Positions 23,513-58,742 of a stretch of DNA of 64,000 nucleotides are shown piece by piece. Under the pieces are notes generated by a model. The model ran no database searches, had not been told where the DNA came from, and was given only the letters and a program-made list of their open reading frames with translations. Position 1 is the first letter of the stretch. Each line of letters begins with the position of its first letter. A program made the position numbers and the translations under genes. Source of the stretch: Phycisphaerales bacterium (GTDB lineage: Bacteria; Planctomycetota; Phycisphaerae; Phycisphaerales; UBA1924); assembly GCA_023382935.1 (NCBI GenBank), contig JAHDXL010000004.1, positions 62,001 through 126,000 on the forward strand. The letters run 5' to 3'.

Positions 23513-24642
23513 GCACGCTCCGCCAGAGGATGAGCGCCCTTCTGGCGGTGCTGAACGCCGAGGCCGATCGGCTTGATCGTCCTGTGAATTTGATGGAAGT
23601 GTGCGGCACGCACACAGTGGCGGCCTGCCGCAGCGGTATTCACGCGCTGATGCCCAACAACGTACGACTGCTTTCCGGCCCTGGTTGCCCGGTCTGCGTG
23701 ACGGCCCAGCGTTACATCGACGCGCTGGTGCGGCTGGGGGCGCGGGCGGATGTGACCCTTGCCACCTATGGCGACATGGTCCGCGTGGCCGGCGAGGGCG
23801 GCTCGCTCGAACTGGCCCGCTCGAACGGCGCCGACGTGCGCGTGGTCACCAGTACGATCGAGGCGGTGGACATCGCGCAGCGCGAGCCGCAGCGCCAGGT
23901 GGTCTTCGCGGCCGTAGGCTTTGAAACGACGGCGCCGGCCAGCGCTGCATGCGTGCTCGAGGCGCAACGGCGCGGGCTGACCAACTTCGCGATCCTGCCG
24001 TGCCACAAACTGGTGATCCCGGCCATGCGCACGCTGCTTGACGACCCGCAGACCCGCATCGACGGGTTCCTGTGCCCCGGGCACGTGAGCGTGGTCATCG
24101 GCTCGGCGGTCTACGACGAAATCGTCGCTCGCTACAACCGCCCGTGCGTGGTCGGCGGCTTCGAGGCTCTGCAGATGATGGAGAGCGTACTGGCACTGGT
24201 GCGCCAACTGGTCGCGATGCAGGGCGGCGCGCGGGCCCGCAACGAGAATCTCTACCCGCAGGTGGTGCGCGCGCAGGGCAACCCGCACGCGCGGGCCCTC
24301 ATCGACCGGGTGTTCGCGCCGGGCGATTCGGCATGGCGCGCCCTGGGCGTGATGGAAGACAGCGGGCTGGACCTCCGCGAGGAATTCGCCGATTTCGATG
24401 CGTTCCGGCGCTTCGGCATCGTCCTCGGCGACGATCGCGAGCCGCCCGGCTGTCGCTGCGGCGAGGTCATCACCGGGCGCTGCGAACCGAACGACTGCAA
24501 ACTCTTCGGCACGGTATGCACGCCGATTTACCCCGTCGGCCCGTGCATGGTGTCGAGCGAGGGTGCCTGCCAGGCCTGGTTCAAGTATCGCCGCGCCCGC
24601 ATGAAGATCTCAGCCCCGCGGCGCGAGGAGGTGACGGCATGA
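23509..24642 (+). CDS. hypD: Hydrogenase maturation scaffold HypD
   Basis: The 377-residue protein has the HypD signatures NLMEVCGTHTVAACRSGI, LLSGPGCPVCVTAQRYID, GFETTAPASA, CPGHVSVVIG, and the C-terminal Cys region GCRCGEVITGRCEPNDCKLFG that binds a [4Fe-4S] cluster. It assembles the Fe(CN)2CO group with HypC. The GTG start overlaps hypC (GTGA), and the stop overlaps the hypE ATG (ATGA), so the three genes are translationally coupled. Confidence 0.97.
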   Translation: MSTLRQRMSALLAVLNAEADRLDRPVNLMEVCGTHTVAACRSGIHALMPNNVRLLSGPGCPVCVTAQRYIDALVRLGARADVTLATYGDMVRVAGEGGSLELARSNGADVRVVTSTIEAVDIAQREPQRQVVFAAVGFETTAPASAACVLEAQRRGLTNFAILPCHKLVIPAMRTLLDDPQTRIDGFLCPGHVSVVIGSAVYDEIVARYNRPCVVGGFEALQMMESVLALVRQLVAMQGGARARNENLYPQVVRAQGNPHARALIDRVFAPGDSAWRALGVMEDSGLDLREEFADFDAFRRFGIVLGDDREPPGCRCGEVITGRCEPNDCKLFGTVCTPIYPVGPCMVSSEGACQAWFKYRRARMKISAPRREEVTA

Positions 24643-33896: not shown

Positions 33897-35065
33897 TCAG
33901 TTGCACCCACCGGCGAACGTGCACAGGAACGCCTGCACGTCGAAGAAGTTCAACACACCCCAGGGTTCTGCGAAGTCGGCCTGATTGCAGCAGTAGTTCA
34001 GCGTGATGACCTACGCGCCCATCATGTACGAATGTCCGATGATCACGCGCCCGTTGGCCGAAATCGCCGCGCCACGTCCAAGTTCAGCCCGCCGGGCACC
34101 GTCGCGCCCAGGGCGGTGACATAGTCCTTGAGAAGCACCAGCGGGCCCGTGCCATGTGGCTGAATCCACGCGCGCCGGTTGCCCAGCAGCATGTCAAAGC
34201 CCACGATCGTCCCGTTGTCGGCGATGTCGAACGCATGACCAGCCCATCCGTTGATCAGCGAGCCGTTGCCCAGCACCTGCACACCGCCCCCGGCCGTCCA
34301 CTTCACCGCGTCATATACCCCGTCGGGCGCGCCCGTATACAGCGTGCCGAGCACAATCTGGCCGTCGTTGCTGATCCCGTGCCACTGGCCCTGCGCATCG
34401 CCCGTCGCGTCCAGCAGCGTGCCCTCGAGCGTGGCTCCGTTCCACATTGCCGGCGTCCGGTTGAATGTGCCCTGCGCAAAGCCCGCGCTCACCGATCCGT
34501 CAGCCGAGCACACGCTGGCGCGATTTGCGCCTCGGGCCAGATTCTGAAGTTGCTGCATGCCCGTCGCCGCCGTCCACCGGAACCCGCGCCCGGAGCACCC
34601 GTCCCACGACCACCCCACCACCGCGGATCCATCGGCGGAAACTTCATAGGCGTCCGATCGGCTGGGACACACCCCGGCGTTGGGCAGCCAGCCCAGCCCG
34701 ACCCACCCGTCCTCGTCAGTCCACTTCGCCGCCTGGTTCGAATAGTCCTCGATGCTCGTCTCGGGAATCTCGCCCACGACCACCGAGCCGTCGTCCGCCA
34801 CGGCAACCACCGCGTCCCCGCCCGTGGCAATCGCCAGACTGGAAATAACCGTGAATGCGCCGGTCCAGCGATCCCAGCGGTACCCGTCGTCGGGGAAGAG
34901 GTTGCCGTCGGTGTCTAGGCTGCCGGCGACGAAACGCCCATCAGGCGTCAGGTCGTTGGCCAAGAGCACCCCGGGGATGAACTCAAAAGTCGCCGACACC
35001 TGCGCGCCGGCCACCCCGGCGATCCACAGCGCGATGCCAAGGCCCGACTGCTTCGATCTGCGCAT
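33897..35065 (-). pseudogene. Broken secreted HAF-repeat protein with GC-type dockerin tail
   Basis: From ATG 35065 (AGGAGGAAGG upstream) an intact frame runs to 34043: a signal peptide (LGIALWIAGVAGAQVSA) and repeated HAF-type segments (DLTPDGRFVAGS, EVSADGSAVVGWSWD, ISNDGQIVLGTL, IADNGTIVGFD). It ends in RRFRPTGA, out of step with the family. The expected continuation is present one frame over (AAISANGRVIIGHSYMMGA at 34070-34014), implying a lost base near 34070. It is then cut by an in-frame TAG (34011-34013), after which the frame encodes the typical tail CNQADFAEPWGVLNFFDVQAF and stops at 33897. So one indel and one nonsense codon separate the body from its sorting or anchoring domain. 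Sequencing error cannot be excluded for the indel. Confidence 0.75.
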
Positions 35066-35182
35066 GATTCCTTCCTCCTGCTGTTGGCTCGCACAGGTAC
35101 ACACCGCACGCCCGACGCGACGGGAGTGGAGCGGCGCACCATCTCGATGCCCCGGTCCGGAGAAAAGTCATGTACAAGTCAC

Positions 35183-35815
35183 TCAGCGACGACGACGAAG
35201 CCCCAGCACCGCCAGCCCGAGCAGGGCGCCGGTCCCAGGAGCCGGCGCCATGTCCCACGTAGCGTTGTCCATCACCGTGGTCGGGAAGAACCCGAAGCCG
35301 AGAATGCGGATCTCGTCGAACGTGTCGTCATTCATCGCGGTGATGTCAAACCAGGTGTCACCCAGCCCGCCCCACGCCGGCGTGTGACCCCACGACGCGC
35401 CGACCTCGACCCCGTCATTGAACAGAATCACCGCCAGTCCGACGCCCATGAACGTCGGCCGGCCCGAGGGATCCCGGATCTGGGCCGAAAAGTCCGTCAG
35501 CCCGTTGCTGAAGTTCATGAACACGCCCCAAGCGCCTAGAACGAGTTGCCCTGCCCCAGCCCCCAGCCGGCGAACATGTCGTTGTCGCCGACGATCGTTC
35601 TGCCTTCCCCGGACTGGAGAGAGGCCAAGCCCAGCCCGGCGAACGAGTCCGGCGCGATCACCCCCACCGGCCCGCCGACCTCGTCGAAGTTCAGGGTGGT
35701 CGCATAGGTGGGTGCCGGAGCCCCGGTCTGAGTGATGGTGAAACCCCCGCCTGAGCAACACCGGCTCCCCACACCACCGCCGCGCCCCCCACAATCAGAG
35801 TCTTTTTTGTCGCAT
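35183..35815 (-). pseudogene. Broken PEP-CTERM-like secreted protein (three frames)
   Basis: The pieces of one protein lie in successive frames. After the likely ATG at 35815, one base seems to be missing in an A6 run; the shifted frame then gives the signal peptide TKKTLIVGGAAVVWGAGVAQA. One base is lost in a G5 run near 35755, after which the frame reads FTITQTGAPAPTYATTLNF and continues to GLGQGNSF. A third shift near 35540 leads to VFMNFSNGLTDFSAQIRDP through FDITAMNDDTFDEIRILGFG and the C-terminal sorting-like signal APAPGTGALLGLAVLGLRRRR. The tail has the small-Pro turn, hydrophobic helix and Arg end of PEP-CTERM anchors. Three single-base losses in short homopolymers suggest decay or assembly error; only comparison can decide. 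Confidence 0.65.
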
Positions 35816-35865
35816 TCTCCTTCTCTCGCGATTGCGGGCCCGACCATCGGTGCCACGCTCCGGCG

Positions 35866-35909
35866 CAGATAGTGGGACTCGGATGATCACACAAGTTTCC
35901 ATATGGAAA
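35866..35909 (-). promoter_or_regulatory. Divergent control region with perfect 14-bp palindrome
   Basis: TTTCCATATGGAAA (35896-35909) is a perfect palindrome in the 167-nt gap between the divergent PEP-CTERM-like and HTH genes. On the minus strand TTGTGT (plus 35889-35894), 17 nt and TATCTG (plus 35866-35871) form a possible promoter directly next to the palindrome. It could be an operator, perhaps of the neighbouring HTH protein (inference). Confidence 0.4.
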
Positions 35910-35982
35910 TCTTTGCAAAACTCCTTGGCCGCACCTCCACCCTTCGCCAGCGCCTCGCGATCCTGTGTCGAGGAAGCCTCCG

Positions 35983-37212
35983 ATGCCCCCGAACACCACC
36001 ACCGGCTTCGAATCCGACTGCCGCGAGCGCCTCGACGCCCTTCGCGCCTCCCTGATCCGCCTGTACGCCAGCATGGGGCTGGATCCGGAGAGCCCCTAGG
36101 ACATCGCGTGGGCGTTCAAACTCAACAAAACCCTAACATGGAAACTGTCGAAGGTCATCAATGCCTCGTACACCCTGACCGGCGTTTCACATGTTCCGGG
36201 CCTGAGTGCGATGGGGATCTTCCTCGACGCCCTGGAGAGTTGGGGGGCCCAGCAGCTTGATCTGCAGGCCGTTCGGGACGCCGCCGAACGGTTCGAAGAG
36301 GTCATTGAACTGCATGTGGGTGATCGCCCGACGCTGCAACTGGTGCTGGACGGGCTGGCGCCCGGGGCCGCCGACCGGCTCGAGATGAGCCGCAAACTCG
36401 CGTTCCGGGACAACAGCGGGATCTATGGCGTGCAGGCGCGCACACGGATGGCGTTGCATGTGCTGGCCCCCAACGCCGACGACCCGGGCAAACTCGACCT
36501 GGCGATGGTGCGGGGGTACATCGGGTTCCGGCGTCTGCGCCCTCTGGTGCGCTGGCCCATGTTCCAGATGCGTGCGTGGAGCACCGGCGACGACCAGATG
36601 ATGACCCACCAGCGCTGGGAGCCGATCGAGGCTTCGGGCAATGGCCAACAGACCTGCCTGATGCCTTCCTTCAGTTCGGCCAACTTGCTCGAGATCTGCA
36701 CGGAAACGACGCCGGAGGGCATCGACATCGTGGCCATGCCCGGACCGGTGGGCAACTTCGGAGCCATCGACTGCATCGTTGGCGACATGATGCGATCGGC
36801 CGTCAGTCGCTATCGCAGCGCCGACGACGGCACGGGTGAACTGGGAGCGGCCATCACGGTTCCGGTTGAGACACTGGTCGTTGACCTGGTCGCCCATGAG
36901 GACCTGGCCTTTGCCCTGACGCCGAAGGTGGTGGTGTTCGGACATGTGGCCCCGCACGGCCGACCCAGCGGGCGCGAGGATGCTTTGACGACGCTTCCGA
37001 TCATGGACGAGGTGCGCGAACTTTCCGGCCGCCCGCCGGCGATGGCGACTCCGCGCGTTCCCAAATACTCCGACCTGGTCGTGCAGGTGTGTAAATGGCT
37101 CGGGTGCCCGCTGGACAAGATGCGTGCGGTGCGTCTGGAAATGAAGTACCCGCCGCTGGGCGCCAACGTGGTGTTTCGGTTTGAGTTGCCGGATCCGCCG
37201 CAAATGTCATAG
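35983..37212 (+). pseudogene. HTH-containing planctomycete protein interrupted by in-frame TAG
   Basis: From ATG 35983 (GAGGAAG 7 nt upstream) the frame reads MPPNTTTGFESDCRERLDAL up to GLDPESP, meets TAG at 36097-36099, and then continues in the same frame without another stop to 37212. The post-stop segment DIAWAFKLNKTLTWKLSKVI looks like the rest of an HTH motif, so the TAG interrupts one gene (a sense CAG or similar is likely ancestral). The remainder (about 370 residues; RKLAFRDNSGIYGVQARTRM, VRGYIGFRRLRPLVRWP, VPKYSDLVVQVCKWLG) resembles large conserved proteins of unknown function in planctomycetes. A shorter product starting at ATG 36211 could still be made. Other genes here end in TAG, so read-through as the normal genetic code is unlikely. 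Confidence 0.7.
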
Positions 37213-37602
37213 AAGCGCGAAGGCCGGTCGCTCACCTCCGTTCACGACCGCGTCGACGAACAGGGCCAGATGCGACCACTTGCCGCCCTATCAGGGACGG
37301 TGCCGCGGGAAGGAGCGGTGACGTCGCGTGTGAAACGCCACTGCTGCGCCGCGAGGGAGCCCCGGCACCGACTTGCGTCTCGAGTGGCGGCGAGCCGTGG
37401 CACCCGGCAGTTCAACGTCTCATTCGGGGCACCCGGCCCACCTTGGGAGTGTGGCTGCAACGGTGTCCAGCCGCAAGCCGAATCCGGGACTTCAGGTCAG
37501 GTCGTCCGCCGATTGAGGCCGGGGTGTCCGCATCTTCATGGCCTGCGGTGCACGTTCACGCAATCCTTTGGTCCGAGGGGGAGTTGGGGTACACTGTGCC
37601 CC
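37213..37602 (+). promoter_or_regulatory. 390-nt intergenic region ending in a leaderless-type promoter
   Basis: No gene is supported here. At its right end TTGGTC (37568-37573), a 16-nt spacer and TACACT (37590-37595) form a promoter-like pair only 7 nt before the GTG at 37603. The rest is GC-rich without a clear hairpin, repeat or coding frame. Confidence 0.45.
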
Positions 37603-38400
37603 GTGTTTGAGCACATGAACAGCCAGGATGCGCACCGGTGCCACATGCTGGCCGGGGAGTGTCGTGAACTGGGGGCCGACAGCGACGGGTGGCGGGTGCA
37701 CCTGATCGAGGGGCTTCGGGCGCTGGTGGGGGCGCGCGTGGTCATCATGGCCGAACTGGTGAATCTCGGGCCCGATGCCGAAGGCCCAATGAAGTCGCTG
37801 GCGACGCATCGCGTGGGGTGGGCCGACCCGGTGTCTGAGGCACGCTGGCGCGAGTATGCCCAGTCGACGCCGGTGCAGCGAACGCCGGAGTATCCGTACA
37901 TCAATCGCTTCGCCGGCGATCGCCTGACGCTTTCGCGCGATGAAATCTGGGGGCGCGAGAGTTGGTATCGCTCCAAGACATTCAACGAGATTCACCGCGC
38001 CTGCGGGATTGACGACTACGTGATGTCGATCCGCGCGACGGACATTCCCGGACGCTCGCTGTCGATGTGGATTCACCGCGAGGTGGGCGAGCAGGGGTTC
38101 GGGGCGCGCGAGCGCGGGTTAATTTGTCTGGTGCATGACGTAATCAGCCGCGAGGTGGGCGGATTTCTGGCGCGGGCCGACGAGCCGAGGCTGGCACCGC
38201 TGACTGAGCGCCAGCGCCAGGTGCTGGCGCGTCTGCTTCATGGAGATTCGGAGAAGGAAATCGCGTTTGCATTCAATTTGAGTCGCGCCACCGTGCATGA
38301 CCATGTGCTGGCGCTGCACCGGCATTTCGGCGTTTCCAGCCGCGGGGAGTTGCTTTCCCGCTTCATTGGGCGCGCCAGGCCCCGGCTGGGCGAACGCTGA
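37603..38400 (+). CDS. LuxR-type HTH transcriptional regulator
   Basis: The protein of 265 residues (from GTG 37603; 261 from ATG 37615) ends in a LuxR/GerE DNA-binding domain: LTERQRQVLARLLHGDSEKEIAFAFNLSRATVHDHVLALHRHFGV, with the usual TERE-like start and recognition helix. The N-terminal 180 residues look like a GAF/sensor-like domain (LIEGLRALVGARVVIMAEL, GIDDYVMSIRATDIPGRSLSMWIHR, FGARERGLICLVHDVI) as in many planctomycete LuxR proteins. GTG was chosen because a TACACT box sits 7 nt upstream and there is no ribosome-binding site for either start. It precedes the secreted propeller gene but the targets are unknown. Confidence 0.85.
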   Translation: MFEHMNSQDAHRCHMLAGECRELGADSDGWRVHLIEGLRALVGARVVIMAELVNLGPDAEGPMKSLATHRVGWADPVSEARWREYAQSTPVQRTPEYPYINRFAGDRLTLSRDEIWGRESWYRSKTFNEIHRACGIDDYVMSIRATDIPGRSLSMWIHREVGEQGFGARERGLICLVHDVISREVGGFLARADEPRLAPLTERQRQVLARLLHGDSEKEIAFAFNLSRATVHDHVLALHRHFGVSSRGELLSRFIGRARPRLGER

Positions 38401-38484
38401 TCACCCCTTCATCTCGATCACCGCCAAGCCCACCGAACAGTGGGGGCGGTTGTGCAGTGCGCCGGGCGAAACTGAATGTTGTTC

Positions 38485-38503
38485 GCAGGGCGGGGTGCCC
38501 TGC
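38485..38503 (+). other. Hairpin in the leader of the propeller gene
   Basis: GCAGGGC (38485-38491) and GCCCTGC (38497-38503) form a 7-bp stem with a 5-nt loop, 33 nt upstream of the ATG at 38537. No T-tract follows. It may influence translation or mark the end of the regulator mRNA. Confidence 0.3.
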
Positions 38504-38536
38504 GGCTCCGGGATTGCCCTGAATGGGAGAAGCAAC

Positions 38537-39502
38537 ATGAGAATCGCAAGCGCCCTTGTGCTCGCCGCGTGCGGGCTTTCCAGTTCGGTGATGGCCGAGG
38601 AACTGATCGTCACCGGGCTGTCGGGGCTGGTGCAGACAATTGACTTGGACACGGGGGAGGTCGGGCACCGCGGGGTGTGCACCGGCGCGGTGAGCGCGAT
38701 GGCTGTGGCCGACGGGGTGCTCTATCTGGGCGGTTTCTTCGGCGATGTGTACAAGTTTGACATGACGACCAACCAGGTGGTCGATTCGTTTTCGATTCCC
38801 GGCTCGACACACGCAATGGGGTGGGACGGGGCTCGCCTGCTGATCGCCAACTCGGACAGCACGATCATCACCATCGATCCGGCCAATAACTCGATCGTCG
38901 AGACGAGGAACGTGCCGACCAGCGACATCAGCGCCATGGGCATCGACGCGGGCGGGCTGTTTGTCGGCGGAGAAAACTCGCTGGCGTTGCGTTCCCCGAT
39001 CGGACGTGACAACTTCCAGTTTTTCGCGGCCTGTGGTTCGCAGATCAAGGCCATGGGCTTCGGGCCTCAGATCATGTACCTGGCCGGCGCGACCTTTGCG
39101 GGCAACGCGGGCACCGTCTACACGTTTGACAAGTTCGTGGGCGGGGTGACGTATTCAGGGACGTTCTCCACGCCAAACGTGCCCACGGCCGTGTTGGCGC
39201 ACAACGGCAAGTTGTACGTCGGCGGCACCGACGGCATGGTGCACGAGATGGACCCGGTGACGGGGCAAATCTTCCGCTCGTTCGACCTATTCATCGAGGT
39301 GCGAGGCATCGCGCCGACCGAGGGGCTGGTCAGTTGCCCGGCCGACTATGACATCTCGGGCGACCTGAACTTCTTTGACGTGATGGCCTTCCTCCAGTTG
39401 TTGTCGACCCAGCGCCCAGCCGGGGACACGAACGGGGACGGGGCCTTTGACATCCACGACGTGGTGTTCTTCCTGGACATGTTCCACGCCGGCTGCGATT
39501 GA
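38537..39502 (+). CDS. Secreted beta-propeller-like protein with GC-type dockerin tail
   Basis: The 321-residue protein has a signal peptide (MRIASALVLAACGLSSSVMA), a region with repeated short strands typical of PQQ/NHL-like propellers (GVLYLGGFFGDVYKFDM, AMGWDGARLLIANSDSTI, HNGKLYVGGTDGMVHEMD), and a C-terminal domain CPADYDISGDLNFFDVMAFL ... DTNGDGAFDIHDVVFFLDMF. This tail has two EF-hand-like calcium loops as in dockerins, and is characteristic of Phycisphaerae secreted proteins. GGGAGAAG precedes the ATG. A strong terminator follows the stop. The binding partner of the tail is unknown. Confidence 0.85.
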   Translation: MRIASALVLAACGLSSSVMAEELIVTGLSGLVQTIDLDTGEVGHRGVCTGAVSAMAVADGVLYLGGFFGDVYKFDMTTNQVVDSFSIPGSTHAMGWDGARLLIANSDSTIITIDPANNSIVETRNVPTSDISAMGIDAGGLFVGGENSLALRSPIGRDNFQFFAACGSQIKAMGFGPQIMYLAGATFAGNAGTVYTFDKFVGGVTYSGTFSTPNVPTAVLAHNGKLYVGGTDGMVHEMDPVTGQIFRSFDLFIEVRGIAPTEGLVSCPADYDISGDLNFFDVMAFLQLLSTQRPAGDTNGDGAFDIHDVVFFLDMFHAGCD

Positions 39503-55498: not shown

Positions 55499-56749
55499 AT
55501 GTCCCTGCGCATCCTGCACATCTCGACGCGGCTCATCCTCGGCGGATCGCAGGAGAACACCGTCCTGAGTTGCGAAGGGCAGGCCCGACTCGGACACGCG
55601 GTGCACCTGGCCTATGGCCCGATCTACGGACCCGAAGGCTCGATGCTCGAGCGCGTCGCGTCCTTCAACCAGCGCCAGCGCGACACGGGCGGGCAGGCCA
55701 TCGTCACGCACGAAGTGCCGCACCTGATGCGACAGGTCAGCCCTGTGTCCGACCGTGCGGCGTTGCGCGAACTCAAGCGCCTGATCGCGAAGATCGAGCC
55801 GGACATCGTGCACACCCACTCGTCCAAGGCCGGCATTCTCGGGCGACAGGCCGCGTGGGAGCATCCGCGCGGGCCTCGGGGCGTCGGCGTCCGTCGCCCG
55901 GGCGTGGTGCACACGATTCACGGGCCGCCGTTCATGCCGGTCGAAGGCGGGTGGACCTCGCGTGCGAAGATACGTGCAACCAACGCGGTCTATGCGGCGC
56001 TGGAGCGGCATGCGGCGCGGCGCTGCCACCTGATCGTCTGCGTGGCCGACGCGATGCGCACGCAGTTTCTCGATCGCAATATCGGCCGTCCCGAGCAGTA
56101 CGTGACGGTGCGCAGCGGGATGGAGATCGAGCCTTATCTCTCGCCACGCGCCGGTGCAGCGCGCGAGCAGGTGCGGGCGCATCTCGGGCTGCGCGATACG
56201 GATTTCGTCATCGGCACGGTGGCGCGGCTGGCCGAGCACAAGGGGCACGATGACATCCTCGACGCGATGGGGCAGACCATGCGCTCGCGCCCCGAGTTCA
56301 AACTGCTTTGGGTGGGCGACGGGTGGTGGGCCGATCGCCTGCGCCAGCGGATCGAGGCCCTGGGGCTGCACGATCGCGTGGTGCTGACCGGACTGGTCAA
56401 TCCCGAGCAGATTCCCGGGCTGGTGCGGGCCATGGACGTGCTGTGTCATCCCAGTTATCGGGAGGGGCTGCCGCGCACCGTGCCGCAGGCGCTGCTGTGC
56501 GGCGTGTGCCCGGTGGCCTACGACGTCGATGGCACCGGGGAAATCTGCCGCGAAATGGAAACCGGGCGATTGGTCCGGCCGGGAGATGTCAACGGGCTGG
56601 GCGCCGCCATCGTGTGGCTGGCCGATCACCCAGCCGAGCGCCGTGAACTGGCTGCCCGCGGGCGGGCCGAGTGCATCGACCAGTTCGATGCCCGGCGCAT
56701 GGTGAGCGAACTGGAAGAGGTCTATCGGCGTGCACTCGATCAGGTCTAG
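55499..56749 (+). CDS. GT4-family glycosyltransferase
   Basis: The 416-residue protein is a GT-B glycosyltransferase: LRILHISTRLILGGSQENTV, IEPDIVHTHSSKAGILGR, VVHTIHGPPFMP, GTVARLAEHKGHDDILDAM, LLWVGDGWWADRLRQRIEAL, VLTGLVNPEQIPGLVRAMDV and the C-terminal CHPSYREGLPRTVPQALLCG nucleotide-sugar site. It is a retaining GT4 type, probably for cell-surface or lipid-linked glycan; donor and acceptor are unknown. A TACCGT box lies 10 nt before the ATG with no clear ribosome-binding site. Its end overlaps the next gene by 20 nt. Confidence 0.9.
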   Translation: MSLRILHISTRLILGGSQENTVLSCEGQARLGHAVHLAYGPIYGPEGSMLERVASFNQRQRDTGGQAIVTHEVPHLMRQVSPVSDRAALRELKRLIAKIEPDIVHTHSSKAGILGRQAAWEHPRGPRGVGVRRPGVVHTIHGPPFMPVEGGWTSRAKIRATNAVYAALERHAARRCHLIVCVADAMRTQFLDRNIGRPEQYVTVRSGMEIEPYLSPRAGAAREQVRAHLGLRDTDFVIGTVARLAEHKGHDDILDAMGQTMRSRPEFKLLWVGDGWWADRLRQRIEALGLHDRVVLTGLVNPEQIPGLVRAMDVLCHPSYREGLPRTVPQALLCGVCPVAYDVDGTGEICREMETGRLVRPGDVNGLGAAIVWLADHPAERRELAARGRAECIDQFDARRMVSELEEVYRRALDQV

Positions 56750-58742
56750 ATGGCTGGCCAAACAGGCGACGGGCGCGCTGCTGCTCCTGGGCGTGGCGCC
56801 AGCCTCGGCGCAGATGCTCGACCTGGGTGGCAGTCCGGCGCCGGTGATCGATACATCCACCGCCGCCGGTGAACTGGCCTCCTTCCTTGAAGCGCAGGGC
56901 GCCGAGATCGCGTCACGCGCCCGTGAGCAGCCGGCGCTGGCGTGCTCGGCCGGCCTGCGCCTGCTCGCGGCCGCCATGCTGCGCGATGGACTGGAGAAGG
57001 GCGAGGCCGGCGCGACACGCCTGCTCGCGGCCCGCACGCTGGTGCGCCTCCTGCCCGAACTCGACGCGGCGCTGGCCGACGGTCGCGTGCCCGCGCCGAT
57101 GGGTCGGCTTGCGAGCGAGGATCTGTCACGCCTGGCGGCAACGCTGCCGGGCACACAAACTTCGCTCGACCGCGCGCTGCGTGATGCGCTGGCGCCGCTG
57201 ACCAACGCGCTGGTCGCGCCCTCACGCCCGGCGACACTGCCGTCACTCGAAATTGAGGCGCAGAACTATGCCGGCATTGAGGCCGGGCCCTTCGCTCGGC
57301 TCGATGAACTCGTGGCCGCCGGCCTGACCTGGCCCTCACACGCCGACTCGGCCGCACGCACACATGAAACCGTGCGACGCGCCATGCGCGTGCTTGCCGC
57401 TCCGGGGTGGCTGGAGGCGCAGGCTCGCCGGTCGCTCGCTGCCGGGCTCACGCAGAGCGTGACCGATCTGGCCGATCGTCAGGCTGCTGACACGGCCCTG
57501 CTTCAGATCGATCGCCTGGCCCTGCTGTCCGACCTGATCGCGCTGGTGGATGAATTGCGCGACGGGCCGCTGCGACGAACAGCCACCGCCCGCGTGGCCA
57601 CGCTGGCACAGACCATGCAGACCGATCCGGCCGGCGCGGCGCGATCGGCACGGGCGCTGCTGGTGGTCTTCTCCGCACCGGGCACCGGGCCGCTGGAGCG
57701 CCTGGACCCATGGATGCCCACACCGGTGCGCGTGGCGCTGGGGCACGAACTCAAGGCGGTGGAAGAGGCACGCCAGCGCCTGCTCTCAGTCGGGCTGGAG
57801 TTGCAGGATCGCTCGGACCCGATGATCGAGCCGGCGATGCTCAGCGCTCTGCGGGCCCATCGGCAGGCGCGACAGAGTGTGCTCGACCTGCTCTCCATCG
57901 GAGCGATGCTCAGCGGTGAAAAGCCGATCGAGGGACAGTCGCCCCGCACGCGCCCGCGCGTCTTGCGCGAGTATCGCCGCCTGGCGGCGCCGCTGCTCGA
58001 GGCCGGGCGTGATCTTGCTGACCCGGCCAGAAGCGAGCAGGCCCGGGTCTTCATCGCGTCCCTGGCGGGCATGGCCCGGGCGCTCGAACCGACACCGGAC
58101 GAAGCATCGCTCCGACAGGCCATCGACCCGACCTCGAACGTGCCCGAGGAGGCGCGGGCTCTCTGGCACACGTTGACGGGAAGTCGCGCCACCGACCTGC
58201 TAAGTCGCATGGACGAAGCCCGACGTCAGGTCCGCACCGCCCTGGGCGAGGACAAGCCGGTCGAACAGGCGGCCGCGGCGGCCGCAGAACTCGGTCGCAT
58301 CCGCTCGTTGCTGCGCTCGCTCGCAGCGGCCCACGACGTGTTGTCGGGCGGGTTGCAGGCACTCAACGCATCACCCGTGCTCGAACTGAGCGAGCACGCG
58401 TGGAACGCGGGCTTCGGCCAACTGGAGAATCTGTCGGCGAATGCAACGCGGTCGGCGCTTGAAAACAACGCCATCGCCGACGACGACTTCGCGCTGGCAC
58501 GCCTCGTCGCCGCCGTGGCCGGACCCGAAGCGCCTTCGCCATTCGACGCCCTGCGGCACCTGGGCTTGGTCGACGAGACCGAGTGGCCCGGAACGCATCG
58601 CACGCCGCTGGCGGGCATCTGCCGCAATCTCGAAGAACTGGCCTCGGCTCGCCTGCGGGGTGAAGCAGATCGCGCCACGCGGCTTGAAGCGGACATCCGC
58701 TCGATCGCCCAGCGCGTGCTCGAAGCCAAGCCAGACAATTGA
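56730..58742 (+). CDS. Large secreted alpha-helical protein, unknown
   Basis: The 670-residue protein starts at GTG 56730 within the glycosyltransferase gene, and has a signal peptide (ATGALLLLGVAPASAQ). The rest is predicted almost wholly helical and Ala/Arg/Leu-rich (LARLVAAVAGPEAPSPFDAL, LRSLAAAHDVLSGGLQALNA, RMDEARRQVRTALGEDKPVE). I recognise no domain. The overlap with the glycosyltransferase suggests a shared transcript and perhaps an envelope role. Convergent hairpins follow its stop. Confidence 0.75.
   Translation: MHSIRSRWLAKQATGALLLLGVAPASAQMLDLGGSPAPVIDTSTAAGELASFLEAQGAEIASRAREQPALACSAGLRLLAAAMLRDGLEKGEAGATRLLAARTLVRLLPELDAALADGRVPAPMGRLASEDLSRLAATLPGTQTSLDRALRDALAPLTNALVAPSRPATLPSLEIEAQNYAGIEAGPFARLDELVAAGLTWPSHADSAARTHETVRRAMRVLAAPGWLEAQARRSLAAGLTQSVTDLADRQAADTALLQIDRLALLSDLIALVDELRDGPLRRTATARVATLAQTMQTDPAGAARSARALLVVFSAPGTGPLERLDPWMPTPVRVALGHELKAVEEARQRLLSVGLELQDRSDPMIEPAMLSALRAHRQARQSVLDLLSIGAMLSGEKPIEGQSPRTRPRVLREYRRLAAPLLEAGRDLADPARSEQARVFIASLAGMARALEPTPDEASLRQAIDPTSNVPEEARALWHTLTGSRATDLLSRMDEARRQVRTALGEDKPVEQAAAAAAELGRIRSLLRSLAAAHDVLSGGLQALNASPVLELSEHAWNAGFGQLENLSANATRSALENNAIADDDFALARLVAAVAGPEAPSPFDALRHLGLVDETEWPGTHRTPLAGICRNLEELASARLRGEADRATRLEADIRSIAQRVLEAKPDN

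Follow-up and report, generated by a model that had tools for sequence, protein, structure and literature searches.

When several neighbouring genes of one bacterial genome are found broken, have unrelated genes decayed side by side, or has a single unit been lost? The question is raised by positions 33897-37212 of the 64,000-nucleotide stretch of Phycisphaerales DNA analysed here (the window), in which a reading of all frames reveals three neighbouring broken genes, g1 and g2 on the minus strand and g3 on the plus strand. A genome of the same genus, G002, keeps all three intact and collinear, with products of 417 (g1), 209 (g2) and 407 (g3) amino acids, and this sister copy served as the reference for the lesions. 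An initial annotation, made from the sequence of the window, had described three adjacent lesioned genes; all three are broken when set against the intact copies, but one of the lesions assigned to g2 had been misread.

Lesions in g1, g2 and g3

The g1 gene (33897-35065, minus strand) encodes a HAF-repeat protein with a GC-type dockerin tail, as recognized by the models TIGR02913 and NF041540. Alignment to the sister copy located a one-base frameshift between 34069 and 34068 and a TAG stop at 34011-34013, the latter evident from direct reading as well, and both lesions had been called correctly at the outset. The remaining tail (33897-33965) holds a single dockerin repeat instead of two, owing to the absence of an 81-nt unit that sits between 24-nt near-repeats in the sister; two repeat-like units were present in the g1 tails of the 37 relatives examined. 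The HAF repeat of the window g1 scores 35.8 bits (45.8 in the sister) against a curated cut-off of 22.65, and the dockerin tail reaches 16 bits against a cut-off of 29, which the sister passes at 42.3 bits. The locus is therefore like known HAF and GC-type dockerin proteins in that the sister g1 scores above both cut-offs and the window g1 above that for HAF, and unlike them in that the window tail, although still recognizable as had been noted, amounts to one of two repeats and falls below its cut-off. Damage to g1 is not confined to the window, since the gene is also split between two frames in G111 and G013 (L095 5800-7209 and L096 3872-5279); this may reflect breakage of the HAF gene in further lineages or errors of assembly.

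The g2 gene (35183-35810, minus strand) encodes a small secreted protein, and three frame changes had been ascribed to it. Two of these stand: two extra bases in a G run (C5 on the plus strand, 35744-35748), and the loss of one base between 35537 and 35536, which also makes a TAG in the running frame. The third, placed at an A6 run near 35808, was rejected because the run aligns to the sister start region without a gap; the same ungapped alignment shows instead that the start codon (35808-35810) has been lost by substitution, and that the ATG adopted in the initial annotation is out of frame. The tail of g2 is still recognizable, with a VPAPG-type motif, a hydrophobic stretch and an RRRR end, though it lies under the curated PEP-CTERM cut-offs (14.7 versus 20.7 bits in Pfam, 12.9 versus 16 in NCBIfam), and the sister g2 passes no PEP-CTERM cut-off either. 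Because the tail looks right but scores below these cut-offs, we refer to g2 only as PEP-CTERM-like.

The g3 gene (35983-37212, plus strand) is predicted to encode a helix-turn-helix (HTH) regulator of an undescribed family. The TAG reported at 36097-36099 was present on alignment to the sister; it lies within the HTH segment (36091-36162), at the helix-2 position associated with base 2 of the candidate operator described below. Nearby, at 36109-36111, a Trp occupies a position at which at least 90% of relatives carry Arg. The next in-frame ATG, GTG or TTG is at 36211, beyond the HTH. On these features of the sequence, the regulator function of the window g3 has very likely been lost, with its candidate operator still in place. 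A second damaged-looking g3 paralog occurs in the same genome (L126 4473-5276; G000:C11:35197-35766), consisting of the C-terminal half only (model positions 205-396); its N-terminal part was not found.

The lesions are probably recent and cluster in the patch

The window was compared with G002 over three aligned collinear blocks containing 43 sister-defined gene calls. Convincing internal lesions among these calls coincided with the three adjacent patch genes, and none was found in the other 40, as judged from script flags and coordinates. The script also flagged about a dozen of these 40, at places that by their coordinates were 5' extensions of over-long calls, last codons or an antisense open reading frame. 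The two flagged calls inspected in detail were both spurious: the lesion in a sister frame at about 7252 was rejected because that frame is a 5' extension of a gene which we take to encode a creatininase relative, and that in a minus-strand frame at 24581 was rejected because the frame is antisense to another gene, presumably hypE.

Synteny with G002 stops just past g3, at about 37190 of the window (G000:C4 at about 99190). Relative to G002, the segment 57955-99190 of this contig is flipped against its neighbour, 30425-56565, across about 56565-57955; the decayed genes thus lie at the edge of a rearrangement. Further along the window, a gene at 38297-39502 that appears to be intact encodes a beta-propeller-like protein bearing a GC-type dockerin (NF041540 at 36.7 bits, cut-off 29); it is preceded by a gene for a LuxR-type regulator (37270-38400).

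The lesions might be errors of sequencing or assembly, the genes being intact in the cell: the genome is a draft of 35 contigs, and one lesion falls within a short G run. We consider this improbable, as the lesions cluster in one module of three adjacent genes and have no convincing counterpart in the 40 other calls, and as they comprise, among others, two substitutions that create stops, one that removes a start, and the loss of an 81-nt repeat. Both TAG codons adduced earlier against pure homopolymer error are present in the assembled sequence; for the A6 run the homopolymer argument falls.

Patterns of substitution also bear on this alternative. Between the window and G002, dN/dS was 0.242 for g1, 0.223 for g2 and 0.109 for g3, against a background median of 0.159 over 35 calls, a few of them possibly spurious; values still far below 1 suggest that most of the divergence accumulated under constraint. 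When outgroups were used to assign amino-acid changes unique to one lineage, g3 had 16 in the window lineage versus 6 in the sister and g2 had 12 versus 3, a joint excess of 28 versus 9 (p 0.0026); g1 exhibited no such excess (4 versus 5). In columns where at least 90% of relatives share a residue, nine departures were found in the window only and none in the sister only, which argues further against assembly error. The departures and excess changes fit a recent relaxation of constraint on the window lineage. Together with the intact syntenic sister copies, the low dN/dS and the excess of changes in g2 and g3, though not in g1, bear out the proposal that the losses are recent.

Could the genes nevertheless function in another way, through recoding of a stop codon or as truncated products that are still expressed? 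In favour of this, TAG accounts for two of the lesions, and g3 combines a low dN/dS with a long frame that stays open from 36211. Reading through TAG, however, would not cure the frameshifts of g1 and g2 or the lost start, no in-frame TAG was found in the other aligned gene calls, and a product initiated at 36211 would have no HTH; we regard continued function as very improbable indeed. The patch is, by itself, an ordinary recent pseudogene cluster.

g3, g2 and g1 form one conserved divergent module

A search of 163 family genomes with the sister g2 found the gene in 37, including the source genome and G002, and all 35 other places were examined. A g1-type gene follows g2 in 35/35, although L124 gives a weak g1 match and contig ends truncate the match in some genomes; g3 lies divergent to g2 in 33/35, the contigs of the remaining two (L102 and L145) ending before the g3 position. 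The three genes had been treated as unrelated neighbours, a view that this conserved order contradicts: g3, facing g2, which is followed by g1, constitutes one conserved divergent module, so that the inactivation in the window has struck one unit.

The regulator belongs to a larger family of paralogs. Matches at E 0.001 were obtained in 81/100 genomes of the family and, with the family alignment as query, at E 1e-10 in 37/392 genomes across the phylum, spanning 12 family codes; the eight genomes in which matches were counted had 3 to 10 each, some of them fragments. A fixed rule for protein ends resembling those of PEP-CTERM or dockerin proteins was applied to the divergent neighbours of the 78 g3 copies possessing an N-terminus; it marks 61 of them, compared with 33/1442 control open reading frames. 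Five further neighbours are cut by the end of the stretch and start with a hydrophobic segment; the remaining 12 have no such tail by the rule, and five of them (L131, L157, L169, L181 and L184) are dockerin-like by eye. One locus (L132 4645-7131; G081:C37) carries a tandem pair of g3 copies, with a palindrome only before the first.

No Pfam or NCBIfam family matched g3; a Pfam scan of 33 relatives gave weak, unrelated matches only, and the best match in the PDB by sequence had an E of 0.33. A model of the N-terminal domain, built from a two-sequence alignment (mean pLDDT 77), places a helix at residues 36-43, a turn, and a second helix at 47-58; in the full-length model, residues beyond 110 were under pLDDT 50, and that model was not used. 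For the N-domain, Foldseek gave nothing that reached E 0.001, and the matches of a fold search were weak (best Z 7.2), comprising generic helix bundles interspersed with a few XRE-type regulators.

A palindrome between g2 and g3

The gap between g2 and g3 contains a perfect 14-mer palindrome (35896-35909), identical to that of the sister, which we consider a candidate operator. Its pattern, TTTCCANNTGGAAA, occurs a single time in the source genome. Palindromes pairing at 7 or more of 8 positions were present in 18/40 regions upstream of g3 copies, compared with a mean of 2.5 and a maximum of 7 in 200 shuffles. In seven genomes, chosen for having it, TTTCCANNTGGAAA occurs once per genome; of 10 genomes scanned for a second pattern, TTTCCCNNGGGAAA, the five already known to carry it have it once each and the other five lack it. 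All 12 of these sites adjoin a g3; both patterns occur in G095, once each, next to separate g3 genes. The broader TGTCNNNNNNGACATT (TGTC) pattern was not specific to the module in a scan of 17 genomes.

HTH residues predict the letters of the candidate operator

The letters of the candidate operator vary between copies, and they track residues of the g3 HTH; since the copies share ancestry, tallies over them are not independent. Under a fixed rule applied to 40 copies, those with Arg at residue 3 of helix 2 all had a G-class site (23/23), whereas the 17 with another residue comprised 12 of the T class, one of the G class and four ties; the T-class count includes the window's own copy, its helix-2 residue read as a stop. 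A version restricted to 36 of the 40 sites, leaving out the window's own, L125, L130 and the second L132 copy, with the sites of L124, L127, L131 and L133 picked by eye, paired Arg with the G class in 23/23 and non-Arg with the T class in 12/13. The helix-2 residue changes only twice on a g3 tree built without the HTH columns. With so few independent changes, the association of Arg with base 2 is weak when taken alone and was rejected as sole proof; hence the test on later copies described below.

The start of the recognition helix was likewise associated with bases 5-6 of the site. NKT occurred with CA (9/9), NKN with CC (3/3) and a first-position Asp with TC (4/4); NRG occurred with AA in 14/16 left halves and 13/16 right halves, and in the SRG and SRQ copies the two halves differ. 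In the N-domain model, the code-associated residues fall, with fair confidence, at the starts of the helices at 36-43 and 47-58.

The code was fixed and then applied to copies fetched later, 39 of which had an N-terminus; these are related to one another and partly to the first set, so the counts that follow are not independent. Residues fell within the code in 29 of the 39 and outside it in 10. Allowing up to 2 of 12 mismatches, 21 of the 29 had the predicted site, compared with 0.5 expected from shuffled regions, and the other eight lacked it. The prediction was the best or joint best of eight patterns in 26/29. Permuted predictions yielded a mean of 11.4 and a maximum of 19 sites, and 0 of 10000 permutations did as well as 21. 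Discrimination between CC and TC was right in 19 copies, wrong in one and tied in three. Copies with NRN or SRN, considered after the fact, seem to favour TGTTTG (7/9 within 2 mismatches).

An alternative is that the three genes are neighbours by chance and that the palindrome represents facing promoter elements, not an operator of g3. The -35 box consensus approximates TTGACA, and the TGTCAA class of sites holds this hexamer on each strand, in the manner of a pair of -35 boxes that face each other; moreover, g3 falls in no known regulator family. Such a reading is hard to reconcile with a gene order preserved in 33 to 35 of 35 genomes, with operator letters that track the HTH residues in the later copies, down to the choice between CC and TC, or with the TTTCC classes, which are unlike a -35 box, and we judge it unlikely. 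The conservation of the module, the palindrome in its divergent gap and the ability of HTH residues to predict the letters of that palindrome, which varies with them, make local control of the adjacent surface proteins the most likely role of g3.

Discussion

The lesions, the conservation of the module, the palindrome and the residue/operator code are results of computation. Drawing on them, we think it likely that the window holds a recently inactivated copy of a conserved divergent module, in which an intact g3 would bind the palindrome and control both the surface-protein unit and itself. The intact protein would bind, probably as a dimer, between its own gene and the divergent unit encoding the presumed secreted surface proteins, g2 with its PEP-CTERM-like tail and g1 with its HAF repeats and dockerin; once bound, it would govern the g2-g1 unit as well as g3, repression being slightly more probable than activation. 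The DNA would be read by roughly the first 60 residues, and the other 300 or more would probably serve to sense a signal. The operator letters would be set by one helix-2 residue together with the three that open the recognition helix, so that paralogs within a genome can have sites that differ and are private to each. In the source genome the unit would have been lost as a whole, all three genes having lost frame or start, g3 through a stop within its HTH, with the operator sequence unchanged.

Lambda-type repressors touch DNA at the starts of helix 2 and of the recognition helix. The predicted regulator resembles XRE/lambda-type repressors in having its putative specificity residues at these two places and a palindromic site beside its own gene; it differs in its long C-terminal part and in having no sequence match in Pfam, NCBIfam or the PDB, and by sequence it joins no HTH family known to Pfam or NCBIfam.

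In the published case of PMC9850573, control of a PEP-CTERM gene runs via RpoN and probably PrsK-PrsR. The present system is similar in that its target would be a PEP-CTERM(-like) gene, and dissimilar in its candidate regulator, a lone HTH protein that is encoded divergently from its target and has a palindromic site. Correlation of residues with operator letters has been applied to the MerR (PMC5045206) and GntR (PMC4494728) families; as there, protein residues go with letters of the site, whereas the family of g3 has no Pfam or NCBIfam model. No published description of the g3-g2-g1 module was found in a literature search whose scope left out preprints and most subscription journals, and none of five sought terms is present in PMC11266412.

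With rather less assurance than for the module itself, we favour a more general reading, in which one-protein regulators, each with its own specificity and a near-unique operator, control only the adjacent surface protein and so act as parallel private switches. With comparable reserve, we would extend this reading to a legible protein-to-DNA code, and would take the window to contain a switch that died recently and has kept its operator.

The interest of the locus lies in the module and the code rather than in the pseudogenes, which are ordinary by themselves. The module would link many of the PEP-CTERM-like and dockerin proteins secreted in one phylum to dedicated candidate regulators that lie outside Pfam and NCBIfam, and the code would make the binding sites of these regulators predictable from sequence. 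Paralogs with different sites within one genome may offer a natural set in which to follow the evolution of DNA specificity, and the broken copy suggests that such a unit can be lost as a whole.
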